From assembly GCA_903855995.1 (NCBI GenBank), contig CAIOAN010000013.1, forward strand, positions 204,875-268,874: a DNA stretch of 64,000 nt. Reading direction: 5' to 3'. A program made the translations under genes and the position numbers. Origin of the DNA: an uncultured Opitutia bacterium (GTDB lineage: Bacteria > Verrucomicrobiota > Verrucomicrobiia > Opitutales > UBA953). The notes below the pieces were generated by a model. It had not been told where the DNA came from. It searched no databases and saw only the letters and a program-made list of their open reading frames with translations. Shown piece by piece: positions 8,645 through 56,788 of the stretch. How positions within the stretch are numbered: position 1 is the stretch's first letter; each line of letters opens with the position of its first letter.

Positions 8645-8748
8645 GCCGCCGCAGGGCGGCCGAAGGTAGGGGCTCGGCTATGCCGCGCCCTCCTGCAGCG
8701 GAGTGCACGATGAATCGTGCCCCTACCATGGTTCGCCCTGCGGCGAAC
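8645..8748. repeat. Cluster of palindromic modules with distinct stems
   Basis: GGCCGCC-GCAG-GGCGGCC (8645-8662); GGTAGGGGCTCGGC-TAT-GCCG; GCACGAT-GA-ATCGTGC (8705-8720) followed by CCCTACC; GTTCGCC-CTGC-GGCGAAC (8731-8748). Confidence 0.85.
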
Positions 8749-22406: not shown

Positions 22407-22506
22407 TTTGCCTGCAAGGGAAGCAAGGCAGGCTTGAACTCCGCCGCTCAGCCGCGACTAAACAATGAATCTAGGCTCCATCCATTTATATCTAAGAACA
22501 AAACCT

Positions 22507-22530
22507 CAAGAACAACGAACTAAGAACAAA
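22507..22530. repeat. Pre-start microrepeat tract CAAGAACAACGAACTAAGAACAAA
   Basis: Pairs with 22382-22406; related tracts near 23276 and 24630. Confidence 0.85.
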
Positions 22531-22541
22531 GAACTAAAAAC

Positions 22542-23198
22542 ATGCGCTCCCTCCCCCTCCTCCTGCTCAGCCTTTCCCTCTTCGCCGAAGAGAAACCCGC
22601 CGGAGTCATCATCCACGAAACGGGTGCCCATGAGCCGCTCGCCCAAGGCCTAGCCTTCTTCCATGGCTCATGGAAGTTCGCCGAAGGCGCGATGCTCGGC
22701 GAGCAAGTGCCGACCGAGAAGCATACGGCCACGATCAAAATCCTTACCGCCTTCGACCAGATCAAGGCGGAGTGGAAGATGAAGTTCCTCGATCCGAAGG
22801 AAAACTTTCTCTTTGTCTCCTGGCCGGCCGACTCAGGTGCACACGCCATGGATTTCACTTTCCTTCCTGACAGCGGAAAGTTCGAGCTCATCCGTCCCGC
22901 CTACAAAGACTTGAAGCGCGAAGTCCTCGCCAAAGGCGAACTCAAGGACCTCACCAAAGATTGGCATGATGTCGTCTGCGTCCACGACGGCGCGAAGTTC
23001 ACCCTCACGATCGATGGCGTGACCATCTCCGCCTCCGACGATGCCTTTAATCGCCCAATGGGCCCGTTCTACCTCAATGGTGGCGGCTTCAACGGCGCCC
23101 GCTATCTCGTCAAGGACCTCAAGGTCACCGCACTCCCCGGCTCACCCCAGACTCGCGCTTTCCTGCCGGTGAAGCCCGCAGCGGCGGCAAAGAAGTAA
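22542..23198 (+). CDS. Secreted DUF1080/LamG-like protein
   Basis: 218 aa; signal peptide MRSLPLLLLSLSLFAEE; HDVVCVHDGAKFTLTIDGV...GPFYLNGGGFNGARYLVKDLKV. Confidence 0.65.
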   Translation: MRSLPLLLLSLSLFAEEKPAGVIIHETGAHEPLAQGLAFFHGSWKFAEGAMLGEQVPTEKHTATIKILTAFDQIKAEWKMKFLDPKENFLFVSWPADSGAHAMDFTFLPDSGKFELIRPAYKDLKREVLAKGELKDLTKDWHDVVCVHDGAKFTLTIDGVTISASDDAFNRPMGPFYLNGGGFNGARYLVKDLKVTALPGSPQTRAFLPVKPAAAAKK

Positions 23199-24383: not shown

Positions 24384-24503
24384 GGGTAGGGCGGTCATTG
24401 CCATGACCGCCGTTCGCATCGGTGCGTGCGGCGAGCTGGGCAAGGTCACCGACCTTTCCGTTATCCGTCCGCCCACGGTCGTGATGGCAATCACGCCCCT
24501 ACC
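24384..24503. repeat. 120-bp composite palindromic repeat, copy 1 (inverted relative to 33712-33831)
   Basis: GGGTAGGGCGGTCAT-TGCC-ATGACCGCC ... CGTGAT-GGCA-ATCACG-CCCCTACC; matches the reverse complement of 33712-33831 along its length. Confidence 0.9.
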
Positions 24504-32185: not shown

Positions 32186-32249
32186 GGTAGGGACAGCACC
32201 ACGTGCTGTCCTAGCAACCCCTATGTCGTGACGCGGTCCCGGCCCTACC
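32186..32249. repeat. Pair of GGTAGGG-framed palindromes (GGACAGCAC-CAC-GTGCTGTCC at 32191-32211 and the GTCGTGAC-type stem)
   Basis: Same two modules recur at 43218-43285; the second is reverse-oriented between sites. Confidence 0.88.
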
Positions 32250-32390: not shown

Positions 32391-33572
32391 ATGTTTCGGT
32401 TTCTGTCCCTCACCCTCCTGACATCCGTCCTCTCCGCGCAGACGATCACCATCGCCCCGGCGCCCGTCGATCGCGCGGCCTTGGTCGTGCAGGTCAAGGT
32501 CGCACGCTGCACGGGTGACGTACTCTCGGCCAAGGATGCGACCGGCCACGAATACGACCTGCAGGCCGATGACGACGAAAGCAGCACCTTGGTCCTCGGG
32601 TTCGTTCCTGCCAACCAAGCGGTGACCCTCAAGGTGGCCACCGTCGCCAGCACGCAGCCTCACGCGATCAAGGTCGGCCCAGGCGAAGACGGCCTGACGA
32701 TCTCAATCGATGGCCAAGCAGCCCTCAATTTCCGTACCGACAAGACCAAGAAACCTCGGGCCGACATCAAGGACGAGATCCTGCGTGCGGGCTACCTCCA
32801 CCCGGTACGCTCCCCCTCCGGTGCCATCGTCACCGGAGACTACCCGGCCAACCATCCGCACCACCACGGCATCTGGACACCCTTCACCAAGGCGGTCTTC
32901 CAGGGACGAGCCACGGATTTCTGGAACATGCAGTCGAAGAAAGGCGAAGAACAGTGGCACGGCGGCGGACGACTTTGGTCCGGCGAAGTCTACGGCGGCT
33001 TCGAAGCCGAGATGCACATGAACGACCTGAGCGGCCCTAAGCCCATCACCGCCCTGGTCGATCGCTGGTCGGTCACGGCCTACGCCATTTCGCATGCGCC
33101 CAAGCCGATGCACGTCTTCGACCTCACGACCACGCAGACCTGCACGACGAACGACCCGCTCGAGCTCCCCGAATACCATTACGGCAGCTTCGGCCTCCGC
33201 GGACCCGACGAATGGAACGGCAAGGACGGCGCCCGCTACCTGACCTCTGAGGGGCTCAGCGACCGAAAGAAGGCCGACGGTACCCGCGCCCGCTGGTGCT
33301 ACCTCGGCGGCAAGACCAGCGCCGGACTCTCCGGTACGGCCGTCCTGGGCTTCCCTGGTAATTTCCGCTTTCCGATGCCCCTGCGTCTGCATCCGGACAT
33401 GCCCTACTTCTCGATTGTCCCACAGAAGCTCGGCGCTTTCTCCATCGAGCCCGGCAAGCCTTACGTCACCCGCTACCGCTTCGTGGTCACCGACGGCGAA
33501 CCCGACGCCAAACTCTTCGACGCCTGTTGGAATTCATTGGCGCATCCGGCGGTGGTGAGTGTGGTGAAATAG
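32391..33572 (+). CDS. DUF6807/PmoA-like family secreted protein
   Basis: ATG at 32391 begins MFRFLSLTLLTSVLSAQ; GYLHPVRSPSGAIVTGDYPANHPHHHGIWTPF and PDMPYFSIVPQKLG motifs. Confidence 0.8.
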   Translation: MFRFLSLTLLTSVLSAQTITIAPAPVDRAALVVQVKVARCTGDVLSAKDATGHEYDLQADDDESSTLVLGFVPANQAVTLKVATVASTQPHAIKVGPGEDGLTISIDGQAALNFRTDKTKKPRADIKDEILRAGYLHPVRSPSGAIVTGDYPANHPHHHGIWTPFTKAVFQGRATDFWNMQSKKGEEQWHGGGRLWSGEVYGGFEAEMHMNDLSGPKPITALVDRWSVTAYAISHAPKPMHVFDLTTTQTCTTNDPLELPEYHYGSFGLRGPDEWNGKDGARYLTSEGLSDRKKADGTRARWCYLGGKTSAGLSGTAVLGFPGNFRFPMPLRLHPDMPYFSIVPQKLGAFSIEPGKPYVTRYRFVVTDGEPDAKLFDACWNSLAHPAVVSVVK

Positions 33573-33711
33573 GTTCAAGCGGTTGGCGGGTGGCGGTTAG
33601 CGGTTAGGAAAGACATACGTTTCGGGTAGCGGGTGGCAGCCCCGGGTGGCAGGTGGCGGGCAATACACGCTCAAGGGGAAACCGGTGACCGGATGATTGG
33701 TGGGGACATGA

Positions 33712-33831
33712 GGTAGGGACGTGATTGCCATCACGTCCGTGGGCGGACGGATGTCGGATTGGTCGGTGACCTTGCCCGGCTCGACGCGCCCACGGATGCG
33801 AACGGCGGTCATGGCAATGACCGCCCTACCC
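33712..33831. repeat. 120-bp composite palindromic repeat, copy 2
   Basis: GGTAGGGACGTGAT-TGCC-ATCACGTCC...GGCGGTCAT-GGCA-ATGACCGCCCTACCC; reverse complement of 24384-24503 with internal substitutions. Confidence 0.9.
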
Positions 33832-34080
33832 ATGACAGGTAGCAGCGGTTAGCGGTTGGCGGATGGGAGAGACATTCATTCCGGGTGGCAATTGGTAGGG
33901 CGGGCCCTGACTTCGAACGGACGGCTCGGAGTGCCATCCCTACCCAATGCACACCTAAGGGGTTCCTGGTCTCCCATGAGTCGTGCATCAATCTAACCGC
34001 TAACCGCCAACCGCTAACCGCTTCCACCTCCCTACGCTTCCTCCTTTATCATCCCTCCTTCATCCTCCATCTTCACTTCC

Positions 34081-36327: not shown

Positions 36328-36369
36328 ACATTCCCCCTATACTCCATACTCTATACTCCATACTCTCTC

Positions 36370-42113: not shown

Positions 42114-42333
42114 TAATCCCAATCGCAGCCACCCCGCCGGCATCAGCCGTCGCGACGCCCTCCGCGGCGTTTTCCTCGGTGCACTCGGACTCGCCGTGGT
42201 TCCGCGGCTCGCTGAAGCCAAGGAAGCCGTCAGCGTGCCCAAGGCCGCCGACACCTTCGTACCAGAGAACAACTACCCAACCTTCACCGACGAAGCTGAG
42301 TGCAAATCCGAAGACGGCCCGTTCACTCCCTAA
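42106..42333 (+). CDS. Small Tat-signal protein (75 aa), unknown function
   Basis: ATG at 42106 overlaps the upstream stop by 8 nt; MPDNPNRSHPAGISRRDALRGVFLGALGLAVVPRLAEAKEAVSVPKAADTFVPENNYPTFTDEAECKSEDGPFTP. Confidence 0.65.
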   Translation: MPDNPNRSHPAGISRRDALRGVFLGALGLAVVPRLAEAKEAVSVPKAADTFVPENNYPTFTDEAECKSEDGPFTP

Positions 42334-42334
42334 C

Positions 42335-43222
42335 ATGAATCCGGAAGTCGTCCGCCCTAACCTCGTCGGCCTCGGGGAAGTCCTGTGGGATGTCTTTCCG
42401 GATGCGGCCCACTTCGGAGGTGCGCCGGCTAACTTCGCCTGCCATGCCGCGGGCCTAGGTGGGGACGCGTGGGTCGTCAGCGCGGTCGGCCGGGACAAAC
42501 TAGGCGATGAGGCTCTGGCCTCCCTTTCGGCCAAGAACGTCCACACCCTCCTCCTTCAGCGCAACGATCACCCGACGGGAACAGTCACGGTGACCCTCGA
42601 TGCGGCCAAGCAGGCGAGCTACGTCTTCGCGTCCGACCCCGCCTGGGATCACATCGCCTGGAATGCGTCGCTGGCTCTACTAGCCAAGAAATGCCAGGCC
42701 GTGTGCTTTGGCTCCCTCGCCCAACGCGCCCCGGAAAGCCGACGCACCGTGCGTGAATTCCTCGAGAACACCTCCGCCGATTGCCTGCGTATCTTCGACG
42801 TCAACCTACGTCAGGCCTTCTACTCCCGCGAAGTCATCGAGTCCTCCCTCGGCTTCGCCAACGTCTTCAAACTGAACAACGACGAAGTTCCTACGGTCGC
42901 CGACCTGCTCGGCCTGCCCAAAGACGAGAAAGCCTTCATGCTCGCCGTCGCCCAGCGTTTCGACCTGCACACCGTAGCTCTGACGCGAGGTGCCGCCGGC
43001 TCGCTCGTCTGGCATAAGGGTACCTACGACGAGAAGACCGCCCCGAAGGTCGCCGTCGTGGATACCGTCGGCGCCGGAGACTCCTTCACCGCCGCCCTCG
43101 CCATCGGCCTACTCCGCGGCGATGACCTTGCGCGCATCCATCAACGCGCCGTCGACGTCGCCGCCTTTGTTTGCACGAAAGCCGGAGCGACGCCTGAGCT
43201 GTTACCGGAATTTCGGAGGTAG
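42335..43222 (+). CDS. PfkB family carbohydrate kinase (fructokinase-like)
   Basis: MNPEVVRPNLVGLGEVLWDVFPDAAHFGGAPANFACHAAGLGGD; DTVGAGDSFTAALAIG. Confidence 0.92.
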   Translation: MNPEVVRPNLVGLGEVLWDVFPDAAHFGGAPANFACHAAGLGGDAWVVSAVGRDKLGDEALASLSAKNVHTLLLQRNDHPTGTVTVTLDAAKQASYVFASDPAWDHIAWNASLALLAKKCQAVCFGSLAQRAPESRRTVREFLENTSADCLRIFDVNLRQAFYSREVIESSLGFANVFKLNNDEVPTVADLLGLPKDEKAFMLAVAQRFDLHTVALTRGAAGSLVWHKGTYDEKTAPKVAVVDTVGAGDSFTAALAIGLLRGDDLARIHQRAVDVAAFVCTKAGATPELLPEFRR

Positions 43223-43431
43223 GGACAGCACCACGTGCTGTCCTATGGTCTGCACATTTAGGTAGGGTCGGGACCGCGTCACGACATAGGTGCCTTTGGT
43301 AGGGCTGAGCGCCCCGCTCAGCCGCGGCTGACCTAGGAGGTCAGCCCTACCCTCGATGCAAAAGACAAGGATAGCACGTGGTGCTGTCCCTACCTCGTGA
43401 CAACTAGATCGGCACGCAGTGCCGACCCTAC
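43218..43431. repeat. Cluster of six palindromic modules in GGTAGGG/CCCTACC frames
   Basis: 43223-43243 GGACAGCAC-CAC-GTGCTGTCC; 43267-43285 GTCGGGAC-CGC-GTCACGAC (1 mismatch); 43303-43323 GGCTGAGCG-CCC-CGCTCAGCC; 43326-43346 GGCTGACCT-AGG-AGGTCAGCC; 43369-43389 GGATAGCAC-GTG-GTGCTGTCC (1 mismatch); 43407-43427 GATCGGCAC-GCA-GTGCCGACC (1 mismatch). Confidence 0.92.
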
Positions 43432-43435
43432 CTCG

Positions 43436-44830: not shown

Positions 44831-44956
44831 GGGGTTGGGGAAATTCTGGGAAGCGGAAGAAGCTTTCCGATATTAATAAGCGCAACCGGCGGGGACATCC
44901 GTCTGAGGACTATCCCTTACCGACCCTTCCGACGCTGGCGGCGGTAACAAAGGTAG

Positions 44957-45002
44957 GGCTGACCACCCTTGGTCAGCCGCGGTTGAGCGAGGGCGCTCAA
45001 CC
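44957..45002. repeat. Double palindrome GGCTGACCA-CCCT-TGGTCAGCC / GGTTGAGCG-AGGG-CGCTCAACC
   Basis: Identical modules at 16032-16077; reverse orientation at 53499-53545 and 56628-56673. Confidence 0.92.
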
Positions 45003-45379
45003 CTACCCAAGACAAGGGCTAACAATTCAAAGGGAAACCGGAGACCGGATAGCTAGATGGGGGCATTTCTTTCAGGTCCCAGGTCTCGGCCGTCGGGTCT
45101 CAGGTTCGGCTGCTCAGGTACAGGTTCAGGCACCCTGCCTTCTGTACTCTGTCCTCTATTCAGCCATCCTTCATTTCAGGTGCCAGGTGACGGCCACCGG
45201 GGCATCGGCCATTCAGGCGTCGGCAGTCAGCCTTCGGCAGCCGGCCCCAGGCGCCAGCTGCCGCCACCTGAGATTTCCTAACCGCCAACCGCTTGCCGCT
45301 AACCGCTGACACTGGCGACAGCCTATCCATTCAGCCCTCCACTCAGTCCTCAACGCAGTCCTCCACCCAGCCCTCCACT

Positions 45380-46282
45380 CTACCTCCCCTTCTTCCTCTG
45401 CTTTCTCCGATACTCCACCGGCGTACACCCCATCTCCCGCTTGAACAGGCGATTGAAAAAGGTCACTTGGCGGAAACCGCAGGCCAGGGCGATGTCCAGG
45501 ACACTCCGCTCGCTATCCCGCAGCTCCCGACGGGCGGCCTGTAGGCGGAGCTCGTTCACGAAAGCGCTGAAGCTGTGGCCGGAGTGTTGCTTAAACTGCC
45601 GGGCGAAGGTCGGGCGACTCAGGCCAGAGATCTTCAGGAGGTCCTCCAGCCGGATCTCGTCGCGGAAGTTGGCCACGAGATGCTGCACGGATTTCGAGAT
45701 GGCCTTCTGATAATGGGACTCGGCGCTGAGCGTGAAACTGCGCGAGGACAACAGCGCGAGGTCGGACTCGGGCGCGTCGGCCACCTCCGCCAGGAGACGC
45801 AGCAACGCCGCGAGCTGTCCGGCGCCCTTACTCCGGGCAACATCCTGCATGAGCGCGGCGATGGCCGTCGCGGTCCGCCCACGCAGGTGCAAGCCGCGTT
45901 CGGCCCGCTTGAAGAGATCGCGGAGCTCGAGATTCTCTGGGAAAGCCCACACGGGATGGCTCTCGGGGAAGTGCCACTGGATCGAAAGCCCGCCCGACGC
46001 CCCCGAGGTATGCCAGTGGTGCGGGAGACGTTCGCCGAGCAGGACCAGATCGCCGGCCGCGAACGTGCCGATGGCATCGCCCACGAAGCGCGTGCCCTCC
46101 CCCGCCGTGAACAGGGTCAGTTCCACCTCCTTATGGAAGTGCCAGTGATTACCCTCCCCTTGGACAGGCTGCGTCCGACCAGGTCCCAAGATGCATTCGA
46201 CGTCCCGGAGCGTCTTTGACCAACGCAAGACGCGGAAGGAGTGCCCTTCGGGCAGCTCGACCTTCTCGCGGATGGCTTTCAT
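45380..46282 (-). CDS. AraC family transcriptional regulator with cupin-like N-terminus
   Basis: 300 aa; HFHKEVELTLFTAGEGTRFVGDAIGTFAAGDLVLLGERLPHHWH; C-terminal HTH (CGFRQVTFFNRLFKREMGCTPVEYRRKQRKK). Confidence 0.92.
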   Translation of the reverse strand: MKAIREKVELPEGHSFRVLRWSKTLRDVECILGPGRTQPVQGEGNHWHFHKEVELTLFTAGEGTRFVGDAIGTFAAGDLVLLGERLPHHWHTSGASGGLSIQWHFPESHPVWAFPENLELRDLFKRAERGLHLRGRTATAIAALMQDVARSKGAGQLAALLRLLAEVADAPESDLALLSSRSFTLSAESHYQKAISKSVQHLVANFRDEIRLEDLLKISGLSRPTFARQFKQHSGHSFSAFVNELRLQAARRELRDSERSVLDIALACGFRQVTFFNRLFKREMGCTPVEYRRKQRKKGR

Positions 46283-53241: not shown

Positions 53242-53246
53242 GGTAG

Positions 53247-53658
53247 GGACAGCACCACGTGCTGTCCTAGGTGCAAAAGTGGATGCAAGTTTCAGGTGGC
53301 GGGTGGCAGCCCCGGGTGGCGGGTGGCGGGAAAGCATTTCAGGTCTCAGGTCTCGGCCGTCAGGTCCCGAGTTCAGGTGTTCAGCACCGGGATTAGGTTC
53401 GGGGCCTGCACCCGTACCCGTACCCGAACCCGACAACCCGCACCTGATACCCGATGGCCGAGTCCTGGGACCCGAGATGATTTGTCTGCCTCGGGTAGGG
53501 TTGAGCGCCCTCGCTCAACCGCGGCTGACCAAGGGTGGTCAGGCCTACCTTGTTTTGCTTCGCAGCCGTTCACCCTGCCAGCAGATCCCCACGCGACGCA
53601 TCGCGTCGCGTTAAAAGACATCATTTCGGCTCAAAAAGATATCGCATAACGTTTCCTT
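53247..53658. repeat. Long intergenic direct repeat, copy 1 (flanks the beta-helix gene on its 5' side)
   Basis: Ordered modules shared with 56404-56788: GGACAGCAC palindrome, GGTGGCGG tract, CAGGTCTC tract, ACCCGT tract, TTGAGCG/GCTGACC palindromes, TTGTTTTGCTTCGCAGCCGTTCACCCTGCCAGCAGATCCCC, swapped stem, paired AAAAGAYAYC. Confidence 0.92.
53613..53643. promoter_or_regulatory. Two direct half-sites AAAAGACATC / AAAAGATATC, 21-bp period
   Basis: 53613-53622 and 53634-53643, upstream of the ATG at 53700; matches the arrangement at 56743-56773. Confidence 0.5.
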
Positions 53659-56403: not shown

Positions 56404-56788
56404 GGACAGCACCACGTGCTGTCTTAAGCGCATTCATCCTCAGGTGGCGGGTGGCAGCCCCGGGTGGCGGGGATGCATTCTCAGGTCTCGGGTCTCGGCC
56501 ATCAGGTCCCGGGTTCAGGTGTTCGGCACCAGGTTCAGGTTCGGGGCCTGCACCCGTACCCGAACCCGACAACCCGTACCTGATGGCCGAGACCTGGGAC
56601 CCGAGATGATTTGTCTGCCTCGGGTAGGGTTGAGCGCCCTCGCTCAACCGCGGCTGACCAAGGGTGGTCAGCCTTACCTTGTTTTGCTTCGCAGCCGTTC
56701 ACCCTGCCAGCAGATCCCCATGGCGATGCCAAACATCGCCATAAAAGACACCATTCGAGCGTAAAAAGACACCCGATTGGGTTTCCTT
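56404..56788. repeat. Long intergenic direct repeat, copy 2 (flanks the beta-helix gene on its 3' side)
   Basis: Same ordered modules as 53247-53658. Confidence 0.92.
56743..56773. promoter_or_regulatory. Two direct half-sites AAAAGACACC / AAAAGACACC, 21-bp period
   Basis: 56743-56752 and 56764-56773, upstream of the ATG at 56837. Confidence 0.55.

Follow-up and report, generated by a model that had tools for sequence, protein, structure and literature searches.

The hairpins at 43218-43432 of this window (the whole stretch of DNA analysed, 64,000 nucleotides from an uncultured Opitutia bacterium) are almost certainly GTAG-tagged REPs, mostly arranged as REPIN/BIME pairs; such elements are mobile units that are not autonomous and depend on RAYTs (TnpA-REP) for their copying. 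The sequence-only reading had set them apart from typical REP/BIME elements on the ground that their outer frame is kept and their stem identity is not; this contrast falls away, as the elements belong with REP/BIME and the constant frame corresponds to the superfamily's GTAG tag. That reading had also accepted that an existing repeat family with variable stems in this frame would undo its claim, and the GTAG REPs are such a family (PMC3733652); because stem variation, heterodimers and the presence of several families in one genome are already covered in that work, the elements are of a known kind. Among the origins it had offered, a palindrome-generating enzyme came closest in that a single-strand transposase is implicated, but such an enzyme spreads hairpins that already exist. 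An apparent oddity is resolved in this manner into a known system, and REP-RAYT biology is extended to an uncultured Opitutae genus.

Framed hairpins in the window

Six hairpins, three per strand and all behind GGTAGG, occupy 43218-43432 as first described, with outer ends at 43218, 43261 and 43298 on the + strand and at 43351, 43394 and 43432 on the - strand. They resolve into the following elements:

43218..43243, + strand: REP ACAGCAC, loop CAC; cognate RAYT in sister genomes L075, L080, L089 and L094
43261..43285, + strand: REP with imperfect stem GTCGGGAC/GTCACGAC, loop CGC; present in the L109 orthologue too
43298..43351: REPIN (head-to-head) of the TTGAGCG/CTGACCA class, arms CTGAGCG-CCC (43298-43323, + strand) and CTGACCT-CCT (43326-43351, - strand); sister genomes have another REPIN there
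43369..43394, - strand: REP ACAGCAC, loop CAC, with a single stem transition
43409..43432, - strand: REP TCGGCAC, loop TGC; cognate RAYT in sister genomes L074, L092 and L098

Within 43216-43222, the TAG stop of the upstream ORF (42179-43222) forms part of the GTAG tag in the first of these REPs. The mismatch at 43369 would indeed be a G-U wobble in RNA; the stem is an ACAGCAC copy with a single C-to-T change, and this one transition mutation explains its odd appearance. The other places in the window to which the same geometry had been ascribed carry framed hairpins as well, some of them with one arm decayed:

8665..8727: REPIN, TAC-like class (GCTCGGC / GCACGAT arms), like those flanking RAYTs L099, L101 and L102
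15990..16015, + strand: REP GCAGCAC, loop CGC; cognate RAYTs L076, L093, L095 and L096
16027..16082: REPIN CTGACCA/TTGAGCG, loops CCCT; the L001 RAYT is flanked by this family
24385..24503: REPIN CGGTCAT / GCGTGAT, loops TGCC; GTAG tags ~116 bp apart
32186..32249: REPIN with an ACAGCAC-CAC arm on the + strand and a decayed CCGGGAC arm on the - strand
33712..33830: REPIN ACGTGAT / CGGTCAT, loops TGCC
33894..33944: REPIN, TCC class, decayed (CGGGC... / ACGGCTC...)
44952..45007: REPIN CTGACCA/TTGAGCG, loops CCCT
53242..53267, + strand: REP ACAGCAC-CAC
53494..53549: REPIN TTGAGCG/CTGACCA, second arm slightly decayed
56623..56678: REPIN TTGAGCG/CTGACCA, second-arm tag mutated to GTAA

A search for both tags closing an element within 30 nt finds one place only, because the pairs exceed 30 nt.

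Other repeats occur as well. A second intergenic repeat (33570-33700 and 33840-34030 of the window, and also in L110, L111 and L119) consists of arrays of heptamer-like CTAACCG/CGGTTAG variants (4.3 copies at 33993-34022), which adjoin a larger imperfect palindrome with GGGAAACCGGATGATTGG...CCGGTTTCCGGTCTCCC. At C10 ~83,080 and at 33712 and 32186 of the window, REPINs lie in or beside the centre of this palindrome, an arrangement much like that of other GTAG REPs, for which target palindromes have been described. A long intergenic mosaic of degenerate CAGGTCTCGGGTC and ACCCGTACCCGAACC motifs is present in two near-copies (53280-53490 and 56430-56620). An ACAGCAC element borders each copy on one side, without its tag in the case of the second, and a TTGAGCG/CTGACCA REPIN on the other; similar tracts occur at C10 ~49.5 kb. 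Three short tandem arrays, at 22492-22542, 36337-36366 and 45326-45380 with units CTAAGAACAAGAA, CTATACTCCATACT and TCCACTCAGCCC, are unrelated to the REPs.

Stem families and their transposases

Stems of 9 bp and loops of 3-4 nt are found in the large majority of elements. The earlier claim that stem identity is not kept survives in part, as several stems do share one frame, but the stems are not free, and fall instead into discrete recurring families. In a 425-kb sample of stretches from the same genome (the remainder being covered by whole-genome searches), TTGAGCG and ATGCGAT each recur ten times, CTGACCA eight times, and ACAGCAC and GCAGCAC five times each, with others besides. The families of this sample and their loops are:

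TTGAGCG with CTGACCA, loop CCCT
ACAGCAC, loop CAC
GCAGCAC, loop CGC
ATGCGAT, loop GAC
ATGACCG with GCGTGCG, loop GCC
ACGGCTC with CGGGCTC, loop TCC
GCGCGAC with ACGCGTC, loop GGT/GGC
CTGGCCA with TCGAGCA, loop TCCT/TCCG
CGGTCAT with ACGTGAT, loop TGCC

Neighbouring elements in the sample stand head-to-head in 26 cases, tail-to-tail in 4 and in tandem in 18; in all 26 head-to-head pairs the stems of the two arms differ, and in 17 the loops are exactly the same. Stem cells are paired at 99.5%, with both sides changed in 71 cells, among family representatives that had been preselected as hairpins. The apparent variability of the stems is thus a mixture of several REP families, in which the two arms of one element also have different stems. 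Some 8-10 families coexist in the genome, several of them probably as relics of RAYTs no longer present in it, and old, decayed families persist.

The RAYT/TnpA-REP gene that had been proposed as an object of search is present. The REP-associated tyrosine transposase family has four members in this genome, and three of these are compact (open frames of ~166-192 aa), each type being single-copy, unlike a multi-copy insertion sequence, and each gene being bracketed by its own REP family:

L001: RAYT between TTGAGCG/CTGACCA elements, one of which contains the stop codon of the gene
L003: RAYT between GCGTGCG/ATGACCG elements
L062: RAYT between ATGCGAT elements

The RAYT genes match NCBIfam REP_Tyr_transpos with E = 1e-20 to 6e-24, and against the curated family cut-off of 80, L062 scores 85.4 bits, with L003 (75.1) and L001 (73.7) just below. 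The closest solved structure is that of E. coli TnpA-REP (4er8), and alignment with it conserves the HUH, the metal-binding asparagine, the catalytic Tyr with N-P behind it, and the W-Q...R residues, the last of which are associated with recognition of GTAG (roles of the residues after PMC6006769); L001 carries DHIHMI and Y...NP in this alignment, and the motifs are visible in other RAYTs as well. One RAYT is 92% identical to one from an uncultured Opitutae genome, and on that ground the organism is placed in the Opitutae. It was also observed that a TGA within REP stems ends RAYT genes (L001 1860-1895; L003 1775-1800). The larger RAYT-like gene, of 310 aa (L002 1300-2460, G000 C13 ~102.2-103.4 kb), sits between long inverted repeats sharing GGGGTCAGGCCGTTAC, without GTAG REPs, and this unit is TIRYT-like, resembling the TIR-flanked relatives (TIRYTs) described in PMC3733652.

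An ACAGCAC-type RAYT was sought in this genome and none was found, the best matches being the other RAYTs at 32-43% identity; nor does this genome hold a RAYT for the TGCC, GGT/GGC and TCCT families, for which a mobiliser can at most be assigned from sister species. Window families that have no RAYT here do flank RAYTs in sister species, namely ACAGCAC-CAC, GCAGCAC-CGC, TCAGCAC/TCGGCAC-TGC, the TCC class and the TAC class. In the genus at large, most compact RAYTs are flanked by their own REPs, and a tree of 28 RAYT proteins shows no disagreement between clade and flanking REP type, the 11 REP labels needing 10 changes (the minimum) as compared with 20.9 for shuffled labels. Because this match is in part the inheritance of one locus by shared descent, it shows association and is not proof of specificity. 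Viral contigs searched for the ACAGCAC family gave no exact match.

Turnover, placement and alternative explanations

The gap that holds the six hairpins lies between genes that are kept in sister genomes, the upstream gene in eight (85-92% DNA identity) and the downstream gene in seven (81-89%). The ACAGCAC element is found in the orthologous gap of L115 and L116, and a variant of it in L109; in L112, L113 and L114 the gap begins with a different REPIN, in L110 it holds a TCC REPIN only, and in L111 no REP at all. The middle of the gap is taken by the CTGAGCG/CTGACCT REPIN here, as opposed to a TAC-class pair in several sisters. Such different REP sets, or none, between kept flanking genes are as expected of mobile units, and the orthologous locus illustrates how rapidly intergenic DNA is rewritten by them. 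As L111, in which the element is absent, already reads GAGGTAG at the stop of the upstream gene, the first element may have landed on, or been kept at, a pre-existing GGTAG. Two loci were searched for a clean empty site, one that lacks nothing but the REPIN between undamaged flanks, and the search yielded no more than half-sites; L110 and L111, and likewise L119 and L117, match on one side only.

Gyrase, nucleoid and mRNA-stability roles have been reported for E. coli BIMEs, and it is conceivable that REPs spread by RAYTs were later recruited to similar ends, with some copies functional now. This precedent, and the persistence here of decayed old families, speak for such recruitment; the one locus examined turns over quickly, which argues that most copies are not strongly selected, and on balance we regard recruitment as rather unlikely.

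With regard to placement, 87 of 89 strict elements lie outside predicted ORFs (simple gene calls made in the analysis), and these 87 are distributed over tandem (50), convergent (21) and divergent (16) gaps. A nearly complete exclusion from ORFs, the many tandem or convergent gaps, and the coincidence of the tag at 43218 with the stop codon of the upstream gene would suit hairpins that are selected as transcription terminators, attenuators or mRNA 3'-end protectors, the frame being part of the RNA signal. Such selection, however, leaves the GTAG tag and the bracketing of RAYTs unexplained, no 3' end exists in the divergent gaps that hold 16 of the 87, and the contents of orthologous gaps differ or are missing altogether. 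Furthermore, an Rfam search of the window returned no match at gathering score, by which a structured RNA known to Rfam is rejected. We therefore hold a terminator or protector origin to be improbable.

The shuffled-sequence control suggested at the outset was run, and chance does not yield similar numbers: the window holds 22 cases of GGTAGG with a hairpin of >=7 bp behind it, where 20 dinucleotide shuffles gave 0.1 +/- 0.3 (maximum 1), and 30 cases of GTAG alone before a hairpin, where they gave 3.6 +/- 1.9. Although the window is 63% GC and unframed hairpins are not rare, the idea that a GC-rich genome produced the framed palindromes through chance or through mutations that stabilise hairpins is refuted by these shuffles and by the recurrence of identical stem families across the genome and across species, and its probability is close to nil. 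In the 425-kb sample, perfect 8-bp hairpins are enriched 55-fold for a GTAG immediately in front of them and 78-fold for TAGG; every other tetranucleotide comes behind these two, the next being CTAG (26-fold, 8 cases). A covariance model recovers at least 161 element copies in this genome and finds the elements in 26/26 genus genomes searched, the counts being lower bounds, with 150 candidates scored per genome.

Proposed mechanism and comparison with known REP systems

As HUH single-strand transposases, the RAYTs would mobilise the REP pairs. By analogy with the TnpA-REP of E. coli and Stenotrophomonas, the enzyme would bind the folded single strand through the GTAG foot and the loop, and would require a paired stem of which it reads little sequence; it would then cut at a nearby dinucleotide, and the pair would move via a single-stranded intermediate. 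On the same analogy, recognition of the loop over the stem letters would be the simplest account of arms that have a common loop and different stems. We tentatively suggest, as a possibility that we do not hold to be the probable one, that the RAYT of this genus reads the GGTAGG foot, the loop and the length of the paired stem, leaving the stem letters nearly free; hence each REPIN would have two stems around one loop and avoid a long perfect palindrome, and new families might arise through stem drift and a loop switch matched by a change in the RAYT. Were this true, the genus would constitute a natural library with which to decode loop recognition. In any case, about ten RAYT-REP lineages occur in one genus with a common foot and stem length and with differing loops and stems, and such close homologues allow recognition of the loop by the transposase to be tested.

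The closest counterpart is the GTAG superfamily of Di Nocera et al. 2013 (PMC3733652), which is defined by its frame and comprises 24 families with different stems, forms heterodimers, and can be represented by several families in one genome; Opitutus terrae, of the same phylum as the organism studied here, is rich in GTAG REPs, including families GTAG-17, GTAG-19 and GTAG-20. Variable stems in the GTAG frame have been described there, for the SMAG elements of S. maltophilia, and in PMC3686654. Common to that superfamily and to the present elements are the unpaired GTAG at one end, stems mostly of 6-9 bp (up to 13) and mostly short loops, multiple families per genome, head-to-head dimers and heterodimers, the flanking of RAYTs, and a mostly intergenic location, in some cases inside larger palindromes; the comparison with the published families is one of described features. 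The present elements differ in that nearly all families carry an extended tag, GGTAGGG...CC, and in that 26/26 sampled head-to-head pairs are heterodimers, most with a common loop. A CGTC-tagged REP superfamily is ruled out by the GTAG tag.

In the REP of the S. maltophilia REPtron (PMC8266576), GTAG is followed by a perfect 8-bp stem with a loop of 3 nt, dimensions that closely approach those observed here (9 bp for the stem, 3-4 nt for the loop), and in this Stenotrophomonas system changes to the loop severely impair or abolish activity, with stem letters having a modest effect. The phylum, the loops and the stems differ. The REP/BIME of E. coli, with its TnpA-REP (4er8), has in common with ours the GTAG foot, the RAYT family by sequence, and the catalytic and tag-reading residues. 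E. coli REPs need a bulged stem, however (PMC8266576), whereas most stems here are perfect 9-bp helices that are completely different between arms, so that a REP of the E. coli bulged type was rejected. Finally, Nunvar et al. 2013 (PMC3686654) found in Pseudomonas and Stenotrophomonas that REP abundance tracks the cognate RAYT, and that where a REP family lacks a RAYT, relatives often carry one; the same pattern of REP-RAYT dynamics is seen here, in a genus of the Verrucomicrobiota.
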